A stretch of 64,000 nt of DNA from Parasphingopyxis algicola (GTDB taxonomy: Bacteria > Pseudomonadota > Alphaproteobacteria > Sphingomonadales > Sphingomonadaceae). The translations under genes were made by a program, and so were the position numbers. Shown one piece after another: positions 45,577 to 54,930 of the stretch (position 1 is the first letter of the stretch; every line of letters begins with the position of its first letter). The notes under the pieces are model-generated. The model did not search any database. It saw only the letters and a list, made by a program, of their open reading frames with translations, and was not told the DNA's origin. Location of the stretch: NCBI RefSeq assembly GCF_013378075.1, contig NZ_CP051131.1, forward strand, positions 868,001 to 932,000, written 5' to 3'.

Positions 45577-47010
45577 ATGGGCGCAACCGAAAAAGCCGAC
45601 GGTAATGAACGCGTTGTCACGCGTTTCGCACCCTCACCCACCGGATTCCTGCATATCGGCGGCGCCCGCACGGCGTTGTTCAACTGGCTGTTCGCGCGGC
45701 ATCACGGCGGCGAATTCAAGCTGCGCATCGAGGATACCGACCGCGCGCGGTCGACTGACGAGGCGATCGAGAAGATCCTCGACGGCATGCGCTGGCTGGG
45801 TCTCGATTGGGATGGCGAGGAAGTCTATCAGTTCGCCCGCGCCGATCGCCATGTCGAAGTCGCCAATGCATTGCTCGACCAGGGCAAGGCCTATCGCTGT
45901 TATGCGACGCCCGACGAACTGGCCGAGATGCGCGAGCAACAGCGCGCGGCGAAGCAACCGATCCGCTATGACGGTCGCTGGCGCGACCGCGACCCCGCCG
46001 AAGCGCCCGAAGGCGCGCCCTTCGTGATACGGCTGAAAACCGAAACCGACGGCGAAACCGTCATCGAAGATGCAGTGCAGGGCCGGGTCGTCGTCCGCAA
46101 CGAGGAAATCGACGATTTCGTGATGCTGCGCGGCGATGGCACGCCCACCTATATGCTCGCCGTTGCGGTCGACGATCACGATATGGGCGTCACGCACGTC
46201 ATTCGCGGCGACGATCATCTGAACAACGCGTTTCGCCAGCGCGCGCTGATCGACGCGATGGGCTGGCCGCAGCCGGTCTATGCCCATGTTCCGCTGATCC
46301 ATGGCCCCGATGGCGCGAAACTTTCGAAGCGCCATGGTGCGCTCGGCGTCGAAGCCTATCGGGACGAAATGGGCATGCTGCCCGAAGCGGTGATCAACTA
46401 TCTGTTGCGGCTCGGCTGGGGGCATGGCGACGACGAGATCATCAGCCGCGACCAGGCGGTCGAATGGTTCGATCTCGACGGTGTCGGCAAATCGGCAGCT
46501 CGCTTCGATCTCAAAAAGCTCGAAAATCTCAACGGACACTATATCCGCGAGGCGGACAATGGCCGCCTCGCGGATTTGGCGGCCCCGCTTATCGCTGCCG
46601 ATCTGGGTCGCGAACTGACCGAAGAAGACCGGAAATTGCTGCAGCGCGGTATGGAGAGTATCAAGCCGCGAGCCAAGTCTCTCGGCGAGTTGGCGGAAGG
46701 CGCCGGATTTTTATTTCGCACCCGCCCCCTGAATCTGGACGAGAAGGCGGCAAAGCTGCTACAGGATGGCGCGCCAGCGTTGCTTGCCCATCTCGTACCG
46801 CTCCTTGAGGGACTGCCGGACTGGACGGAAGAGGCGCTAGACACCGCCGTAAGGGAATTTGCCGACGCCCGCGATCTCAAGCTGGGTAAAGTTGCTCAAC
46901 CCCTACGTGCGGCGCTTACCGGCCGTGCGACATCGCCGGGAATATTCGATGTGCTGCTGCTCCTCGGTCGCGAGGAGTCGCTGGCGCGGATCGCCGATCA
47001 GGCAGGATAG
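45577..47010 (+). CDS. gltX: Glutamyl-tRNA synthetase
   Basis: Class I synthetase charging tRNA-Glu; 477 aa. HIGH motif in [23 protein letters not shown]-like N-terminus (FLHIGG), KMSKS equivalent KLSKRHG, and DTDRAR for substrate binding. The C-terminal anticodon-binding helical domain follows from about residue 310. ATG 45577 follows GGAG; a TTG at 45562 is in frame but less likely. Followed by gltA 13 bp later. Confidence 0.97.
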
Positions 47011-47023
47011 CAGGAGCAAATAT

Positions 47024-48310
47024 ATGGGCGACAACAGCGCCAAAATCTCGGTCAACGAAAATGATTATGATTACGCGGTGGAGTCCGGCTCGTGCGGTCC
47101 CGACGTAATCGACATCCGCAAGCTCTATTCCGAGACGGGCCTGTTCACCTTCGATCCCGGCTTCAAGTCGACCGCGAGCTGCGAATCCGGCTTGACCTAC
47201 ATCGACGGCGGCAAGGGCATATTGCTCCATCGCGGTTATCCGATCGACCAGCTCGCCGAACAGTCGAACTTCATGGAAGTCGCCTATCTGCTGCTCAACG
47301 GCGAATTGCCCGGCCGCCAGGAATTCGTCGATTTCGAACGCACGATCACCTTGCACACCATGGTCCATGAGCAGCTGAAACAGCTCTACAGCGGCTTCCG
47401 TCGCGACGCCCACCCGATGGCTATCATGTGCGGCGTGGTGGGCGCACTGTCGGCTTTCTATCACGACTCGACCGACATCTCCGATCCCGAGCAGCGCAAG
47501 ATCGCCTCGCACCGGATGATCGCGAAGATGCCGACGATCGCCGCGATGGCCTATAAATATGCGATCGGCCAGCCCTTCCTCTATCCGGACAACGATCTCT
47601 CCTACACCGGCAATTTCCTGCGCATGACCTTCGGCGTTCCCGCCGAGGATTACGAGGTGAATCCGGTCATCGAAAAGGCGATGGACCGGATCTTCATCCT
47701 CCACGCCGATCATGAGCAGAATGCCTCGACGTCGACCGTGCGCCTCGCCGGCTCGTCGGGCGCCAATCCGTTTGCCTGCATCGCCGCCGGCATCGCCTGT
47801 CTCTGGGGTCCGGCGCATGGCGGCGCCAACGAGGCGGCGCTCAATATGCTGCGCGAAATCGGCACGCCGGACCGGATCGGCGAGTATATCGACCGCGCCA
47901 AGGACAAGGACGATCCGTTCCGCCTGATGGGTTTCGGGCATCGCGTCTACAAGAATTTCGATCCCCGCGCGAAGGTGATGAAGGAAACGGCGGCCGACGT
48001 GCTGAATACCCTGGGTGTCGACGATCCGATCTTCGATGTTGCGCGCGAACTCGAGCAGATCGCACTCAGCGACGAATATTTCATCGAGAAGAAGCTCTAC
48101 CCGAATGTCGACTTCTATTCAGGCGTGATCCTCTCGGCGATCGGATTCCCGACGACGATGTTTACGGTTCTCTTTGCCCTGGCCCGCACCGTGGGCTGGG
48201 TCGCCCAGTGGAACGAGATGATCTCGGACCCTGGTCAGACCATCGGCCGGCCGCGTCAGCTCTATACCGGCCCCGAACAGCGCGATTACGTACCGATCGG
48301 CAGCCGCTAG
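47024..48310 (+). CDS. gltA: Citrate synthase
   Basis: Condenses acetyl-CoA and oxaloacetate, the entry of the TCA cycle. 428 aa, the hexameric NADH-sensitive length class of Gram-negative bacteria. The catalytic residues are visible: His in [12 protein letters not shown], His in [15 protein letters not shown], and Asp in [12 protein letters not shown]. The ATG at 47024 follows CAGGAG; an upstream extension of the frame overlaps gltX and is not used. It ends 3 bp from the end of the histidine kinase gene on the other strand. Confidence 0.98.
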
Positions 48311-48313
48311 AAG

Positions 48314-49687
48314 CTAATCGCCGACCGGCAGGGTCAGCACGAAACGGGCGCCCTGCCCCGGTGCGCTGTCCACATCGATATCCCCGCCCATCGCCCGTGC
48401 CAGACGCCGGGCGATGTAGAGGCCGAGGCCCGTGCCCGGTTCGTCGGCCGAAAGACGTTCGAATTTTTCGAAAATGCGCGGCTGGTCTTCGGGCGCAATC
48501 CCGCGCCCCTGATCCGCTACGATGACGGCGGCCAGATCGCCTTCTGTTTCGCAGCGAATCCAGATCTGGCTATCCTCGGGCGAAAAACGCACGGCGTTAC
48601 CGACCAGATTTACTAGGATTTGCAGCACGCGCTTATAATCGGCGCGGGCGGGCAGGCTTTCGTCATCGGCCGGGCGGTCGATCCGGATCTTCTTCTCGCT
48701 CGCGCGCACCGACAGCAGGCCCGCGGCGTCGCGTGCGATATCGGCCAGATCGATGTCCTGGATCTCGGGCTCGAAATCGTCGCGCTCGACCGCCTGGAGA
48801 TCGGCCAGATCGTCGATAAGGCCGAGCAAGTGGCGCCCGGCGCGCGCGATGTCACCCGCATATTCGGCATAATCTCCTCGGATCGGCCCATCGATCTGCG
48901 CCTCGATACTGTGGGCGCTCGCCACGATCCGGTCGAGCGGAGCCCGCAACGCCCGGTTGATCTGCCGCCCGAAGGCATTGGGAACCTCGGTCTCGCCGTG
49001 CAGAACGCCGGGTCGGTCCGGCTTCGCCTCGACGGCTACCGCCGTGCCGCGAAACCCGGCAAAACGGCCACTGCCGTCGATCAATGGAACCGCGGTCAGT
49101 TCGACGCGCTGCGCTCCTTCCGGACGAAGCACTGCTTCCTGCCGCTCGAAGCGACGATGTTCGGCCAAGGCGTTCAGAATGGGGAGGGTACCGTCATCGC
49201 GCTCGACGAACCGGAACAGGCCGGTAAGCGGTTGACCGACAAAAGAATCGGCGGCGCCCAGCATCTTGTCGGCATCGGGCGAGAGCGCCGTCAGCCGCAA
49301 CGTATGGTCGGTTTCCCAAAGCCAGTCGGCATCGGCCCGCAGGAAATCATGTTCGCGCAGTTCGGGATCCCGGCCAGCCGGAGAAGCGGGATCTCGGGAT
49401 ACCCAACCGCCCACTGCCAGCTTCACGCCGTCACTATCCGGCTCGGCCTGGATATGCAGTTCCACGTCACGATCTCCGTCGGCGGCAATGACCGAGCGCG
49501 AGACAGCAATGCCGAGTCGGCTGGCCAGCTTCGCAAGCGCGGCGATTTGCGGGATCGCCAGGCTCCCCCCCGGAACCCCGCCCGCACGCATGTGCAATTC
49601 TTCAAGCGCCGCATCGGCGGCAACCAGAGAGCCCTTCTCGTCCAGCCGTCCGAAGGACTGACCGGCAGAGCTTGCCATGCCGTTCAT
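48314..49687 (-). CDS. PAS-histidine-kinase-like protein lacking the phospho-acceptor His
   Basis: 457-aa cytosolic protein without membrane segments. A PAS-like domain (about 112-220) is followed by a dimerisation region (about 236-300) and a HATPase_c domain (about 350-457). The ATPase is intact by motif: N box ILVNLVGNAVRFSPE (N360, N364), G1 ADQGRGI, F box IFEKFERL, G2 GTGLGL. In the H-box, FGRQINRALRAPL aligns position by position with the usual F-x-x-N-[MI]-S-H-E-L-R-T-P-L, placing R245 at the His and A246 at the Glu. Autophosphorylation at the normal site is therefore not possible. The ATG overlaps the DUF2336 stop (ATGA). It may be an ATP-binding sensor, allosteric partner or scaffold. 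Confidence 0.88.
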   Translation of the reverse strand: MNGMASSAGQSFGRLDEKGSLVAADAALEELHMRAGGVPGGSLAIPQIAALAKLASRLGIAVSRSVIAADGDRDVELHIQAEPDSDGVKLAVGGWVSRDPASPAGRDPELREHDFLRADADWLWETDHTLRLTALSPDADKMLGAADSFVGQPLTGLFRFVERDDGTLPILNALAEHRRFERQEAVLRPEGAQRVELTAVPLIDGSGRFAGFRGTAVAVEAKPDRPGVLHGETEVPNAFGRQINRALRAPLDRIVASAHSIEAQIDGPIRGDYAEYAGDIARAGRHLLGLIDDLADLQAVERDDFEPEIQDIDLADIARDAAGLLSVRASEKKIRIDRPADDESLPARADYKRVLQILVNLVGNAVRFSPEDSQIWIRCETEGDLAAVIVADQGRGIAPEDQPRIFEKFERLSADEPGTGLGLYIARRLARAMGGDIDVDSAPGQGARFVLTLPVGD

Positions 49688-50808
49688 CGCAGGGCTCCGC
49701 TATCGGCCGCCGCCAGTTGGGCGACCACGGAACGGTAGACGGGATCGAGCCGCCAGGGCCGCATCGCAGCCTCGGTATCTTCAGGGCGCAGCGTATCGTA
49801 CAGCTCGACCCACTCGGCCGCGACTTCATCGGCCTTGCCATTCTCGGCCAAAACGGCGTGCAGCATCGCCATCAGCGACTGCGACGCCACATCGCGTTCG
49901 ACGCCAATCGACTTGAGCAGGACCATATGGCTTGGCACATCGGGCATGGTTGCCATGTCCCAGGCTATCTCGAAAGAAATTCCGGCACGAACCGCCAGCA
50001 TTGCGGCATAGAATATCGGTCGCGCGCCGTTCAATGCCTCGACGAGCAGCGGATCGTCGATCAATCCCGCATCATACAGCTTCTCTGCAAGTCTCATCGC
50101 CACTGCATCGACAGGTGGTTCGTCGCCGCGATCCTCGAGCATCCGCCGGGCGACATTCGTAACGACCCGGTCCAGCGCCACCCCGTCCATCCGATGAACA
50201 TGTGCGCCATAATCGCGCAAGGCCGCGGCCACGGTCCAGACGAGCCGATGATCCACTGTCTCGGGCAAATCGCTCCTGCCGAGACGCGGGTCATCGAACC
50301 GTTCGTTGATCCGGCTTTCAGCGATCAGCAGTTTCATGGCGTGAGCGGCAATGTCACGATCACCATGTTGTGTCAGCACGTCGAGCCGCCCGTTTTCATC
50401 GGTCACGCCGGTCCGGCGCAATTGCCGGATGATGTGATAGGACTTGCCCCGCCGCTCGAGGATGTTCGCAAGCTCGTCATCCTCGAGAAAGCCCGCGCGG
50501 GCAAGTATCGGCCAAGCGATCGCGACATGCGCGGCGCCGAGCGAGGCCGCGAATTCCGGCTTATCGGGCAGTTCGGGCTCCGTCAGCAGACGGGCGCGCA
50601 TTTCGTCTTCGATACCGCCGACAAGCCCCACGAACATGCGGCGGATTGCAACGCGTTCGATTTCGCTCAAGCGGTACCGTTCGGGCTCTACGAGCTCCGC
50701 CAGCGTGAAGCCGGTGCCGCTCCTGTGCGCCGCACGCGCCGCCGCAACGAGCAACGCCGAGATGCGCTCTTCGGCAGCTTCCGAGCGGGAATTGGCCGGA
50801 TCAGACAT
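49684..50808 (-). CDS. DUF2336 domain protein
   Basis: 374-aa, all-helical, soluble protein of the DUF2336 family, known mainly from alphaproteobacteria and of undefined function. The helical repeat-like body includes LTQHGDRDIAAHAMKLLIAES and VTNVARRMLEDRGDEPP, and the C-terminal half has MATMPDVPSHMVLLKSIGVERDVASQ. It is translationally coupled to the degenerate histidine kinase gene (ATGA overlap), which is the best hint to its role: a partner or receiver in the same signalling process. Confidence 0.82.
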   Translation of the reverse strand: MSDPANSRSEAAEERISALLVAAARAAHRSGTGFTLAELVEPERYRLSEIERVAIRRMFVGLVGGIEDEMRARLLTEPELPDKPEFAASLGAAHVAIAWPILARAGFLEDDELANILERRGKSYHIIRQLRRTGVTDENGRLDVLTQHGDRDIAAHAMKLLIAESRINERFDDPRLGRSDLPETVDHRLVWTVAAALRDYGAHVHRMDGVALDRVVTNVARRMLEDRGDEPPVDAVAMRLAEKLYDAGLIDDPLLVEALNGARPIFYAAMLAVRAGISFEIAWDMATMPDVPSHMVLLKSIGVERDVASQSLMAMLHAVLAENGKADEVAAEWVELYDTLRPEDTEAAMRPWRLDPVYRSVVAQLAAADSGALR

Positions 50809-50862
50809 GGCCGCGACATAGCCGAAACGTCGTTAAGACCATGCTAATCCTGTTTATTTCGG

Positions 50863-52101
50863 TCAGCCTCGCTGCCGGACCGCCTCTTTCAACATATTCT
50901 GTTGCAAAAACAGTGTGATATAGGCGTATATCGCCACTGCGATCGGCCAATGGAACCAGTAACCGGTCACGGCGAAGGGCAGGATGAGCCATATCGCCGC
51001 ATTTCCGTCGGCCAGCCAAGGCAGATATCGATTGTCCGAGCCGGTCAGTTTGCGGAGATGCTGGACGCCACGGCGGGCCAACACCAGAAGCAAAACGGCG
51101 GTCGCTGCGAGCGCGAGATAGACGATCTCTCCAGTGGTGGTCATGGCCAGCCAACCGATGGCCAGGATCGCCAGTCCCTGCAGCAATCCCTTGAGAAAGC
51201 GGATTTCCCATCCGCCTTCGTGATTGCGCAACTGCGCGAGATCGATACGGCCTGCGATGGCATCGACCGGACCGGCGATCAGCACAAGCGCGAGCCCCGT
51301 CCACAGCCAGCCCCACCAGAACGCAGCCGCGCCGGCAAATGCGAGGACCAGCGCCGCAATCCGCAGCCAGATCGCCTCGATACCACGATCGAGCAACATC
51401 GGCGCGATCCGGGTCACGACCGGCGCATATAGAAAGCGATCCGGCCAACTGTCCGACTGAACGCTGTTGCGGCGCAGCATGGTGCGCCCGGCGTCGCGGC
51501 TCTTGTCGCTGCGTTCCGCAAGGAGCACGGCGTCGCTGGCATCGACAACGACGCCCGCTTCGCCGTCGACGGGCAGGAAATCGGCCCCGGCCTGGACGAC
51601 CCGCCGCATCAGCGTCGATTGCAGGTCCCAATCGCCCAGCATCGCGGCCGTAGCGGCTACGGTATCGACCGTCGTCAGCGCCAGTCCGGCCCAGCGGTGG
51701 TTCGCATCGACCCGCTCGAAATCCTCATTCTCCGGCGTATCGGCCAAGACGAGCAGCGCCGGCGCCGTGCGAACCGCCATCGCCTCGAAACAATCGGGCG
51801 CGGCAACCAGGCCGTCGGCGATGAGCAGAACATGTTCTTCCGGATGAAAACGGTCGGCGGCATCGATCGGATCGCGCGCCAGCTTCACCGCTATCCCGTC
51901 GCGCCGCAACCGGTCGAGCGCGGCGCTCAGCGCTGCCGGTACCCGCTCGACGAGAATGACGGCGTGGCTCGCTCCCGCCGCCACCGCCCGGCGAACCTGA
52001 TGTTCCAGGAGGCTGCGGCCGGCCATGGGCAACAGGGCCCGCAGACCCGCTTCGCCCTCTTCGGCTTCCTGATAGGCAGCGATCAGTGCCGCAAAAGCCA
52101 C
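50863..52101 (-). CDS. Nucleotidyltransferase-like / polytopic membrane (CDP-alcohol phosphatidyltransferase-like) fusion
   Basis: 412 aa from a GTG at 52101. Residues 1-~230 look like a GT-A nucleotidyltransferase domain (ALIAAY..., LLPMAGRSLLEHQVRRAVAAGA, VLLIADGLVA), but the nucleotide-binding G-rich loop is degenerate. Residues ~240-400 hold about five membrane segments in the manner of CDP-alcohol phosphatidyltransferases; where the D-G-x2-A-R...D-x3-D signature is expected there is VDAIAGRIDLAQLR (279-292), which keeps only fragments. The architecture resembles bifunctional IPCT/DIPP synthases of compatible-solute synthesis, but the active-site losses argue against that reaction. Function unknown. 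Confidence 0.72.
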   Translation of the reverse strand: MAFAALIAAYQEAEEGEAGLRALLPMAGRSLLEHQVRRAVAAGASHAVILVERVPAALSAALDRLRRDGIAVKLARDPIDAADRFHPEEHVLLIADGLVAAPDCFEAMAVRTAPALLVLADTPENEDFERVDANHRWAGLALTTVDTVAATAAMLGDWDLQSTLMRRVVQAGADFLPVDGEAGVVVDASDAVLLAERSDKSRDAGRTMLRRNSVQSDSWPDRFLYAPVVTRIAPMLLDRGIEAIWLRIAALVLAFAGAAAFWWGWLWTGLALVLIAGPVDAIAGRIDLAQLRNHEGGWEIRFLKGLLQGLAILAIGWLAMTTTGEIVYLALAATAVLLLVLARRGVQHLRKLTGSDNRYLPWLADGNAAIWLILPFAVTGYWFHWPIAVAIYAYITLFLQQNMLKEAVRQRG

Positions 52102-52206
52102 AACATGCGTCCCAAAACCATCCGGCTTTGGGGATACGCGCAGAACGGAGGCCTTGCAAAGCCGCTCGTCCGGAAAAACCGGGGATTTCCCGGATTTCGA
52201 AGGGCG

Positions 52207-52539
52207 CTACTGCATGCTGTTGTCGCTGTTGAAATCCAGGCTGCTCGAAAAGCTCGCGAGCGACTTGTCGATCCGTTCGAGCAAGGTATTGTCGAATGGG
52301 ACTCCCTCCGCTGCCTGATTGGCCAGCGTCATGAGATCCATTACGCCGAAGCTCGCCGCAAGCCCCTTGAGCCGCCACGCTGCGACCTGCCATTCCTGGT
52401 CGTTGACGGCGTTGTGAAGCGCGGAAACCTGCCGCTGTGCGCTCTGGATGAACGCCGACCGCAGCTCCGCGATCAGCGACGGATCGTCGCCCACGGCGGC
52501 GGCCAACGTCTTGTCCAGCGCTCCGGGATCATAAGCCAT
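52207..52539 (-). CDS. Hpt-like protein with Trp at the phosphorylated His position
   Basis: 110-aa helical protein with the organisation of a histidine phosphotransfer domain: DPSLIAELRSAFIQSAQRQV, then AAWRLKGLAASFGVMDLMTLA. The canonical motif is A-H-x-L-K-G-x-A/S; here residues 54-59 read A-W-R-L-K-G, so W55 replaces the phosphorylated His. The only His in the protein is H42, outside the motif. It cannot relay phosphate in the normal way and may act by binding a response regulator or another partner. It lies upstream of the nucleotidyltransferase fusion on the same strand and is divergent from the coiled-coil gene. Confidence 0.85.
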   Translation of the reverse strand: MAYDPGALDKTLAAAVGDDPSLIAELRSAFIQSAQRQVSALHNAVNDQEWQVAAWRLKGLAASFGVMDLMTLANQAAEGVPFDNTLLERIDKSLASFSSSLDFNSDNSMQ

Positions 52540-52638
52540 GGTGTGGCCCTAACGCATCGCCGTTAACGCTCCGTTGCCGCGCGAGGCTTTCGATAGCCCG
52601 AAAACATGGTAAACACGGCCAGTTGAGAGGGAAATGCG

Positions 52639-54930
52639 ATGGCCGAACCAGCGAACGACATAGTCGAGCTCGAAACTCCGGGGGGAGCCGATTCCCGGGC
52701 TGCCGAGTCAGCATCAGGCCATGCCGAATGGATCGAAGAGGACGAAACGGCATTCGGCCTCGAAGAACCGACCCTGGCCGAGCGTTTTCCAACCATTGCT
52801 ATCATATTGCTCGCGCTCGGCTGGACCGGATTTGTCGGCTGGACCGCCTATTCGAGCATCGCCGCGGAAGCGCCCACGCTCACGCAGATTGCCAACTGGA
52901 TCGCCATTGCCAGCGTCCCGCTTGCCCTGCTTGGCGTGATATGGCTGCTTACCCAGCGCACCAGCCGTCGCGAAGCTGCACGCTTCGGCCGGACATCCGA
53001 AGCGATGCGCGCCGAAGCCCGGCGCCTCGACAACAGCATCGCGATCGTCGCGAGCCAGCTCGCCGAAATCCGCGAGGGGGTCTCGGCCGAGACCGACCGG
53101 TTGCTCGCCTTGGGCGACGAGGCGGCCGGCCGTTTGCGCGCGGTGAGCGACATGATGCGCGAAGCGAGCGCGTCGATCGAACAGAAATCGGGCGTCCTCG
53201 ACCGCGCCACCAAATCCGCGCGCGAGGATGTCGATGTCCTGATGGCCGATCTGCCACGCGCGGAACAACAGGCACGGGCAGTCAGCACCGGCCTGCGCGA
53301 AGCCGGGATCAACGCCCATGAACAGGCTGCGGCGCTCGATACCCAGCTCCTCACCCTCAAATCGCGGGGCGAACAGGCCAGGGACGTCGCCAGCGGCGCG
53401 GCCCAGTCGCTGGCCGCCAATCTTGCCCGGATCGAAGGGGTCGCCGAAGTCGCGGCGGCGAAGCTCAATTCGACCGGCAACGAGATCAACGCCACCGTCG
53501 ACGCTGTCCTCGACCGGTCGAGCGCTGCGGTGGACGATACGCGCAAGGTCGTCGACGAGATCGGCGTCGCGCTGACCGCGATGATCGAAAATGCGCGCAC
53601 GAATTTCAGCCAGGAAGGCGAGGAAGCGGCTGCCGCCCTCGACGCGCGCATTTCAGCCACCGATGCGGCGCTGGAGGCGTTCGACGAACGGCTGACCGAA
53701 CAACGCGCGGCGACGACCGCCACATTGGGCGATCTCGATACCGGGCTCGGCGATATCGAGAGTCGGCTCGTCAATCTCTCCGAAGACGGTGCCGCCCATG
53801 CCCGCGCTCTCGGCGAAGAAATCGCGGCGCTGAGCGCCGACATGTCGGCGCTTGGCGAGAGCATCGGCGGCAACGACGAAGCCACGGAACGGCTGATCGC
53901 GCGTGCCGCGGAAGTGAAGGCGGCTCTCGATTTGAGCGCGGCATCGCTGGGCGAGGCCCTTCCCCAGGCTTTTGCGGAAACCGAAGCCCGGGCGGCGGAA
54001 CTCAAAACCGCCGTCACGAATATCGAACCTGACCTCGAAGCGCTGCAGAAGATGGCGGACGATATGCGCAGCTTCATCGGCGTCAGTGGCGAAAGCCTCG
54101 AGGAACAACGGGTCGCGATCGCGGCGTTCATCGACCAGGTCGGCGATCGGATATCGACCATGCGATCGGATATCGACGGCATCGAGAGCGCCCTCACCCA
54201 TTCGGCCGAACAGGCGGAGAGCATCGCTGACGGCGCGGCACCGCGCCTGATCGAAACACTGATGGAGGTGCGCGAGATCGCGGCTCAGGCAGCGGAGAAG
54301 GCGCGCGCGGCCTTCGGCGAAGTGATCCCCCACAGCGCCGCCGCGCTCAGCGACGCGACCCAGCAGGCTATGACCGAGGCGCTCGGCGAGAATGTCGAGG
54401 AGCGCATCGCTAGGCTGACGTCTGCGTCGGAACGCGCCGCTGAAACGGCCCAGACGGCGATCGCGAACCTTGATGCGAAGATGGAGGAAATCGAAAGCCG
54501 CAGCACGGCGCTCGAAAACCAGCTCCGCGAAGTCGAAACGGAAACGGAAGAGGCGAGCCTCGACGGCTTCGCACGGCGCGTCACGCTGCTGATCGAATCG
54601 CTCAATTCGACCGCGATCGACGTCAGCAAGATATTGTCCAACGAAGTCACCGACACGGCTTGGGCCGCCTATCTCAAGGGGGATCGGGGCATCTTCTCGC
54701 GCCGGGCCGTGAGATTGCTCGACACCGGCGAGGCGCGCGAAATCGTGGCGCAATATGAAAATAACAGCGAGTTCCGCGAGCAGGTGAACCGCTATGTCCA
54801 CGATTTCGAGGCGATGCTCCGGAGGGTTTTGACCGCGCGGGACGGCGCGCCGCTAGCCGTGACCTTGCTCTCTTCCGACAACGGCAAGCTCTACGTCGCC
54901 CTGGCTCAGGCGATCGAGCGGCTGCGCTAG
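52639..54930 (+). CDS. Large membrane-anchored coiled-coil protein, TipN-like architecture
   Basis: 763 aa. An acidic cytosolic N-terminus (1-50) is followed by two membrane segments (about 52-72 and 84-105), then some 530 residues of Ala/Glu/Arg-rich heptad sequence predicted as coiled coil. A compact C-terminal segment has a different composition: SNEVTDTAWAAYLKGD and RGIFSRRAVRLLD. Two N-terminal membrane helices and a long cytoplasmic coiled coil are the arrangement of the Caulobacter polarity protein TipN, so a role in polarity or division-site marking is possible; I cannot confirm homology. The ATG follows AGAGGG. Divergent from the Hpt-like gene, with 99 bp between. Confidence 0.8.
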   Translation: MAEPANDIVELETPGGADSRAAESASGHAEWIEEDETAFGLEEPTLAERFPTIAIILLALGWTGFVGWTAYSSIAAEAPTLTQIANWIAIASVPLALLGVIWLLTQRTSRREAARFGRTSEAMRAEARRLDNSIAIVASQLAEIREGVSAETDRLLALGDEAAGRLRAVSDMMREASASIEQKSGVLDRATKSAREDVDVLMADLPRAEQQARAVSTGLREAGINAHEQAAALDTQLLTLKSRGEQARDVASGAAQSLAANLARIEGVAEVAAAKLNSTGNEINATVDAVLDRSSAAVDDTRKVVDEIGVALTAMIENARTNFSQEGEEAAAALDARISATDAALEAFDERLTEQRAATTATLGDLDTGLGDIESRLVNLSEDGAAHARALGEEIAALSADMSALGESIGGNDEATERLIARAAEVKAALDLSAASLGEALPQAFAETEARAAELKTAVTNIEPDLEALQKMADDMRSFIGVSGESLEEQRVAIAAFIDQVGDRISTMRSDIDGIESALTHSAEQAESIADGAAPRLIETLMEVREIAAQAAEKARAAFGEVIPHSAAALSDATQQAMTEALGENVEERIARLTSASERAAETAQTAIANLDAKMEEIESRSTALENQLREVETETEEASLDGFARRVTLLIESLNSTAIDVSKILSNEVTDTAWAAYLKGDRGIFSRRAVRLLDTGEAREIVAQYENNSEFREQVNRYVHDFEAMLRRVLTARDGAPLAVTLLSSDNGKLYVALAQAIERLR

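Follow-up and report, generated by a model that had tools for sequence, protein, structure and literature searches.

Histidine kinases are taught as self-phosphorylating homodimers. Split kinases are already known as well, and the closest described ones are: (i) CheA3/CheA4 of Rhodobacter sphaeroides, where one half binds ATP but has no phosphoacceptor, and phosphorylates the other half, which bears the His and has no kinase domain, as stated in the available text of PMC3591291 (which also counts 1556 HisKA proteins without HATPase among 42417); and (ii) FasB/FasC of group A Streptococcus, a heterodimer of kinase-like proteins, one of which can do without its kinase domain but not without its DHp His, according to the accessible part of PMC12675982. 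The system considered here was found in Parasphingopyxis algicola, in a window of 64,000 nucleotides (the whole stretch of DNA analysed; contig NZ_CP051131.1, positions 868,001 to 932,000). The window holds a locus that encodes a histidine kinase homologue without its phosphoacceptor His (HKA) and an Hpt homologue also without its His (HPT), and the same genome encodes a second kinase homologue (HKB) with the mirror-image loss. By our reckoning from the sequences, the chance that HKA and HKB together make up one histidine kinase, naturally split into two halves, comes near to an even one, without quite reaching it.

Compared with these systems, several differences can be distinguished. CheA3/CheA4 belong to the CheA family, lack whole domains and lie in a chemotaxis cluster, as far as the same excerpt describes them, whereas HKA and HKB are HisKA-type proteins whose domains are retained and whose differences lie in key residues. 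FasB/FasC come from another lineage and from a single locus, and the putative DHp domain of FasB retains His residues in the portion of the paper available; in contrast, HKA has no H-box His in 67 of the 69 genomes read, and HKA and HKB are unlinked in the window genome. If the proposal is true, HKA/HKB would be a further variant of split kinase and a natural complementation experiment, each partner being without what the other has kept. In such a case, one could directly test trans-phosphorylation, the specificity of the heterodimer and the sequence of losses, and a pseudokinase and a pseudo-Hpt protein would have been fixed by partner dependence rather than by loss of function.

Six-frame reading and Pfam, applied to the window, place four open reading frames at 48314-52539, all on the minus strand and intact. 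The initial annotation had described them as a kinase whose H-box His is Arg, a DUF2336 protein coupled to it, a nucleotidyltransferase/membrane fusion with degenerate motifs, and an Hpt protein whose His is Trp, and all of this was borne out. The features are as follows (numbered from the first letter of the window):

48314..49687, minus strand: HKA, a PAS-DHp-CA histidine kinase homologue of 457 amino acids, HATPase_c intact, phosphoacceptor His replaced
48953..48955, minus strand: codon CGG of Arg245, at the H-box His position of HKA
48596..48610, minus strand: N-box of HKA, Asn360 to Asn364, with both Asn in 69/69 genomes read
48512..48514, minus strand: codon of Asp392 in the G1 box of HKA (DQGRG), kept in 69/69
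48419..48436, minus strand: G2 box of HKA (GTGLGL), its three Gly kept in 69/69
49684..50808, minus strand: DUF2336 protein of 374 amino acids, with a 4-base overlap with the HKA gene
50863..52101, minus strand: NTC, a degenerate relative of the cytidylyltransferase / CDP-alcohol phosphotransferase fusion 4mnd, 412 amino acids
52207..52539, minus strand: HPT, a His-less Hpt homologue of 110 amino acids
52375..52377, minus strand: codon TGG of Trp55, at the Hpt His position of HPT

The H-box of HKA reads FGRQINRALRAPLDRIV, with Arg245 in place of the expected His. In Pfam, HKA reaches 103.9 bits for HATPase_c (cut-off 26.4) and 15.6 bits for HisKA, below the cut-off of 26.9. The eight ATP-site residues checked in the N, G1 and G2 boxes are all kept in the 69 genomes, two of which carry the H-box His; in a second set this His occurs in one of 57 (L313). 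The two sets of genomes and loci (family genomes and named records) overlap, and their counts are not added together; the labels used below are G for genomes, g for genera, f for families and L for sequence stretches. Residue 245 is mainly Pro or Arg, with Ala, Gln, Thr, Lys, Asn, Ser and Val as further states, and Asp and Glu are seen too.

The mirror image is provided by HKB. With HKA as query, the window genome returns 19 matches at E<=0.001, one of them HKA itself. The HKB gene lies on the minus strand at L131:5887-7602, near 715 kb of the contig that also carries HKA, some 200 kb away from it. Its H-box is HELRTPLNAI and its HisKA match is above the cut-off, and Pfam gives no HATPase match at E<=0.1. 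Throughout the 71 genomes read (window genome included), the His of HKB is always present, the N-box Asn never (T, A, S, I or K replaces it), and the first Gly of G1 never (Pro or Thr instead). A profile comparison of HKB with HKA yields probabilities of 94.2 for the PAS, 98.0 for the DHp (E 1.5e-13) and 96.1 for the CA region; the DHp alignment is gapless, and His348 of HKB faces Arg245 of HKA. All HKB residue columns depend on this single profile alignment, and the residue table leaves out a spurious second L110 row and duplicate HKB rows (REF = L131, L096 = L155). Loss of ATP binding by HKB is likely. Both genes could be read in 65 genomes: in 63, HKA has lost the His and kept the ATP site, and HKB has kept the His and lost the ATP site; in the other two (G016 and G021), HKA has both.

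The two genes also tend to occur together. In 347 family genomes, HKA was taken as present at E<=1e-50 and HKB at E<1e-30; the HKB threshold was set once the values were known, and these leave a gap from 5.0e-33 to 5.8e-24. The lists of presence and absence were compiled by hand, and those for HKA and HPT were checked against the tallies (65 genomes without HKA, 229 with HPT). On these terms HKA is present in 282 genomes and HKB in 293: both in 277, neither in 49, HKA only in five, and HKB only in 16. Fisher's test returns 1e-39, which is not to be read as a probability, since the genomes are related and non-independent. The five HKA-only assemblies are fragmented (140-540 contigs, 69-95% complete). 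Furthermore, both genes are absent from six genomes, all 99-100% complete, within genera that otherwise bear both: G061 (g51), G205 (g58), G078 and G153 (g68), and G319 and G348 (g83, which also holds G215, with HKB only).

The locus is conserved well beyond the window. The full order, i.e., citrate synthase (plus), HKA, DUF2336, NTC and HPT (all minus), and a coiled-coil protein here called COIL (plus), is found in 49 of 85 loci (the window and 84 stretches; 83 hold any of the genes, and the remainder include contig ends and other families) and in 43 of the 80 loci of the second set. It is present, for instance, in Sphingobium xenophagum NBRC 107872, Sphingomonas colocasiae, Parasphingorhabdus marina and Novosphingobium sp. 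Chol11. Between the congeners L028 and L029, a pair with a synonymous distance (dS) near 1, the ratio of non-synonymous to synonymous substitution rates (dN/dS) is 0.069 for HKA, 0.031 for HPT, 0.056 for NTC, 0.138 for DUF2336 and 0.071 for COIL. Because relatives share the residue states and the gene order, and because dN/dS is low, these comparisons of sequences put the His-less states beyond chance and the genes under purifying selection. The view that the locus is conserved rather than decaying is thus upheld, and strain-specific decay is ruled out by the shared states, the kept order and dN/dS.

In the proposed mechanism, HKA and HKB would form a heterodimer by way of their DHp helices. 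HKA would use its CA domain to phosphorylate the partner in trans, at His348 of HKB, and from there the phosphate would go on to a response regulator. The DUF2336 protein may be an adaptor or input of HKA, since its gene overlaps that of HKA. HPT would be a non-phosphorylatable binder that contacts a receiver or the kinase through the bulky residue now standing in place of the His, and gates phosphotransfer, and NTC and COIL would tie the system to the membrane. The dimerisation, the phosphotransfer, the regulator and the role of the DUF2336 protein are what we infer from residue pattern, homology, constraint and co-occurrence. The initial annotation had favoured a non-phosphorylating role for the kinase; given a complementary and co-occurring HKB, it is more likely that HKA still transfers phosphate, namely to the His of HKB. 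A broader claim would be that of an obligate heterodimeric histidine kinase, arisen by reciprocal loss between two unlinked HisKA-type kinases and now in use across much of the family, with HPT as a non-phosphorylatable gate and under CtrA-type control beside citrate synthase, which would link polarity or motility to metabolism; taken as a whole, we consider it unlikely.

As for the order of losses, canonical HKA and HPT would have come first, HKB would have lost ATP binding early, and the His of HKA would then have been lost once, in one clade. In a tree of 37 sequences, His-less HKA form one clade (support 100/99) that is joined to His-bearing HKA (98/97). G109 has the same locus order, with about 3.4 kb extra between DUF2336 and NTC, and bears both His (MSHELRTPLN in HKA, AAAHRLKGAAQ in HPT); G065 and G081 also have His in both proteins, the two genes lying on different contigs and HPT beside COIL. 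Because these three genomes keep the canonical His in HKA and HPT, the His-less state is read as derived and not as a strain-specific decay. The expectation that orthologues share the loss at both positions stands for the family at large, where His is rare, and gives way only in the distant G065, G081 and G109; that of a conserved neighbourhood is supported. In family f5, DUF2336 adjoins a His-bearing HKA, and in the f5 genomes read (G027 and G386) the best match to the HKB profile is that HKA gene itself.

Two stretches show an HKA His in a non-canonical H-box context: L313 (uncultured bacterium; DHALRAP) and L207 (G049; DHSFKPS). Unlike them, early-branching HKA relatives read SHELRTP. In the tree, L207 is counted among the His-less sequences despite this His, and the tree carries a long-branch warning.

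Several observations weigh against the split-kinase proposal. Firstly, the 16 HKB-only genomes comprise four of g6, five that are 66-87% complete, and seven outside g6 that are 99-100% complete (G052, G053, G071, G194, G215, G224 and G307). Five of these seven have weak HKB matches (1e-50 to 1e-67); G052, G053 and G215 show no HKA match even at 1e-34, while the G071 match at that line (L230) is an ordinary His-bearing kinase. In G215, HKB (L160) is without ATP residues although HKA is undetected. In g6, a diverged HKA candidate lies beside DUF2336 or HPT in G014, G123 and G232, and no such candidate was found in G184. Secondly, the ATP site of HKB degenerated earlier than the His of HKA was lost, as seen in G016, G021 and two of the three HKB-like proteins read in family f4, which have neither the G1 nor the G2 pattern (the third, of G026, is G1-like). 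Thirdly, in the tree HKB forms a group of its own (96/91), with HKA and the remaining kinases of the genome outside it, and hence HKA and HKB are, on this phylogeny, neither a recent duplicate pair nor sisters. Fourthly, the ATP-site residues of HKB are partly kept: two Gly of G2 remain in 69/71 and 66/71 genomes, and Asp at the G1 position in 18/71. Fifthly, the two His losses of the locus were not strictly simultaneous, given that the HPT of g6 keeps its His (G123 and G232) while the candidate HKA does not. To these points must be added the lack of linkage between HKA and HKB, the fact that genus-wide absences of the two genes are not independent events, and a mirror-tree analysis of 20 genomes in which all pairs without citrate synthase were correlated at >=0.80, so that it is uninformative for the pairing.

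One alternative, unlikely but deserving of attention, is that HKA acts as a DivL-like ATP-binding pseudokinase, where ATP and a bound regulator would switch its shape and another kinase or regulator would be controlled by contact, with no phosphotransfer and with HKB independent of it. DivL of Caulobacter (solved as 4q20, which is among the solved matches of HKA) likewise has its H-box His replaced and its CA domain retained, and it has been published as a repurposed kinase (PMC4211667, in the portion accessible); the ChrS pseudokinase is a further known case, according to an excerpt of PMC9491836. The same excerpt cites the ATPase domain of DivL as dispensable, whereas the ATP site of HKA is kept in 69/69 genomes. 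The best other match of HKA in the window genome is a Tyr-H-box, DivL-looking kinase (E 2.7e-24), and in the tree HKA stands nearer to such kinases than to HKB. What this alternative leaves unexplained is the mirror-image loss in HKB and the shared distribution of both genes. Moreover, DivL has Tyr at the H-box and is PAS-rich, while HKA has Arg, Pro or other residues and sits with DUF2336.

The Tyr-H-box match, a separate gene of 780 amino acids in the window genome with SNISYELRTPL and PAS domains, probably is DivL. The identification of HKA itself as DivL is rejected in view of this Tyr-bearing, PAS-rich gene and of the Arg of HKA.

ChpT is a DHp protein with a degenerate CA domain. A second alternative, which we regard as rather improbable, is that HKB works in the manner of ChpT, as a phosphotransferase that takes its phosphate from a receiver domain, with HKA in a separate role and the shared distribution reflecting one larger regulon. 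Against it speak the PAS-like segment of HKB and its alignment to a kinase over all parts, the lack of any ChpT by name among the 33 solved matches of HKB at E<=0.001, and the joint absences in four genera. Its strength lies in the early ATP degeneration of HKB and in HKB without detected HKA in 16/347 genomes; the seven complete ones, together with the fact that HKA and HKB are not sisters, weaken the split-kinase proposal and strengthen this one. Early loss of ATP residues and complete HKB-only genomes would also suit a RetS-like role.

This third alternative, more doubtful still, takes HKA/HKB as a regulatory heterodimer of the RetS-GacS type, with inhibition or stimulation without receipt of phosphate, and with the His of HKB serving a phosphatase or another donor. 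The closest solved sequences to HKB are indeed the RetS kinase regions 6dk8 and 6dk7, and also 7n0e, which we take to be the RetS:GacS complex. GacS is a complete kinase. HKA, without phosphoacceptor, and HKB, without ATP-site residues, are both incomplete, and hence neither would be the autophosphorylating GacS-like member. In any case, RetS-GacS heterodimers offer a precedent for kinase-kinase pairing (PMC12675982 and PMC9491836, as far as the available parts describe them). Finally, relaxed decay of a dispensable pathway, to which the drift of HKA residue 245 and the lack of the genes in some genera might point, is very improbable in view of the dN/dS of HKA and HPT between the two congeners, the ATP-site residues kept in 69/69 genomes and the full gene order in 49/85 and 43/80 loci.

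Returning to the split-kinase proposal, HPT would be its gate. The Pfam Hpt match of HPT (22.8 bits) is slightly below the cut-off of 24.6, with Trp55 within AAWRLKG, and no solved relative was found by sequence at E<=0.1. HPT matches at E<=0.001 occur in 229/347 family genomes and 69/96 genera, a few of them not credible (L247, inside a frame of 580 amino acids of another protein; L246, 36 residues). Position 55 reads W21, M18, L13, Q8, S1, A1 and H1 (n=63), and W40, L16, A4, S3, F2, Y2 plus five singletons, with no H, in the second set (n=72); six weaker, early-branching matches carry His. Plant pseudo-HPt proteins are, in the accounts available, likewise Hpt homologues whose His was replaced and which are kept by selection; they differ in that they belong to the cytokinin relay, while HPT is bacterial, has mostly bulky hydrophobic residues at the site and shares its locus with a His-less kinase. 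By analogy with them, the mostly bulky residues at position 55 suggest a contact site.

The sole His among the 63 belongs to the main clade (L064, of G202; AAHRLKG), and its congener L107 (G341) has Leu.

The suggestion of an undescribed module holds in part: its neighbourhood is conserved, and the literature searched gave no account of this system among the matches listed, subscription papers being mostly outside the coverage. The part that does not hold is the constant company of the genes, as HPT is not detected in 61/282 HKA-bearing genomes, and G205 retains HPT, NTC and COIL but has lost HKA and DUF2336 together with the unlinked HKB.

Regarding the other proteins of the locus, the DUF2336 protein matches PF10098 with 77.1 bits (cut-off 34.6) and is the only such match in the window genome; as SpbR (NF052659) it scores 40.7 against a cut-off of 400. 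NTC has no Pfam family over its cut-off. The profile of the NTC family hits 4mnd, a fusion enzyme of solved structure (E 1.7e-7), and a regular-expression scan found neither the NTP-transferase signature nor the CDP-alcohol phosphotransferase motif in the window NTC or in its syntenic copies. In PHROGs, the matches of HKA were all of kinase type, and DUF2336, NTC and HPT had no match. In L256, L038, L041, L042 and L047 (one early-branching locus and other genomes), the surroundings of NTC relatives include frames of about 300-390 amino acids whose CDP-alcohol phosphotransferase motif is intact, and these frames may point to the ancestral NTC pathway. In L035 (G006, an assembly 66% complete), NTC is split over two frames, by an assembly error or a true break.

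The neighbouring features are the following, the last one lying beside HKB:

46859..48310, plus strand: citrate synthase, convergent neighbour kept in synteny
52562..52575, no strand assigned: GTTAA-N6-GTT element, CtrA-like, in the divergent HPT-COIL intergenic region (lead only)
52639..54930, plus strand: COIL, coiled-coil protein of 763 amino acids, divergent neighbour kept in synteny, with a strongly conserved C-terminal domain
L131:4818-5855, minus strand: gene of about 345 amino acids following HKB, kept beside it in 53/70 loci

An Lrp-type regulator gene adjoins HKB in 67/70 loci. The gene of about 345 amino acids may resemble a WalW-type polysaccharide deacetylase, and Pfam names no family for the frame in which it lies. 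In three genomes of g57 the HKB gene lies near HPT and COIL, a point in favour of the split-kinase proposal; in one of them, G067, the surrounding genes resemble by eye the HKB neighbours of the window genome (Lrp-type regulator, TPR-like protein and the gene of about 345 amino acids). The N-terminus of HKB was also considered as a DUF2336 domain and rejected, with a profile comparison probability of only 0.7.

COIL shows by eye hydrophobic segments close to its N-terminus, and no Pfam or NCBIfam family lies above the cut-off. Its C-terminal domain shares 98% identity with that of a Parasphingopyxis MAG (L267), and is found in 70/190 genomes of the class, in frames of widely varying length. 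No result supports the identification of COIL as TipN, and with such a spread this name is a lead only.

Citrate synthase and the CtrA-like element are suggestive only, as regulatory leads. In Caulobacter, work that started from tipN mutants reports that control of CtrA and of the G1-S transition by a citrate synthase is separate from its catalytic role (PMC7083601, in the part available). The CtrA consensus TTAA-N7-TTAA occurs in one of 62 HPT-COIL intergenic regions. The form TTAA-N7-TT[TG], chosen after inspecting the same sequences, occurs in 49/62, against a mean of 0.7 and at most 4 in 100 shuffles. In G189 (L348), the strict form of the motif gives two matches and its reversed control one, and hence the element is not callable as a regulon. 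The first of the two matches lies in the HPT-COIL region, and the second between frames that look CheR-like and GGDEF-EAL-like (names given by eye). The listed frame of citrate synthase opens with TTG, and its true start is probably downstream, because the family match begins only at residue 58.

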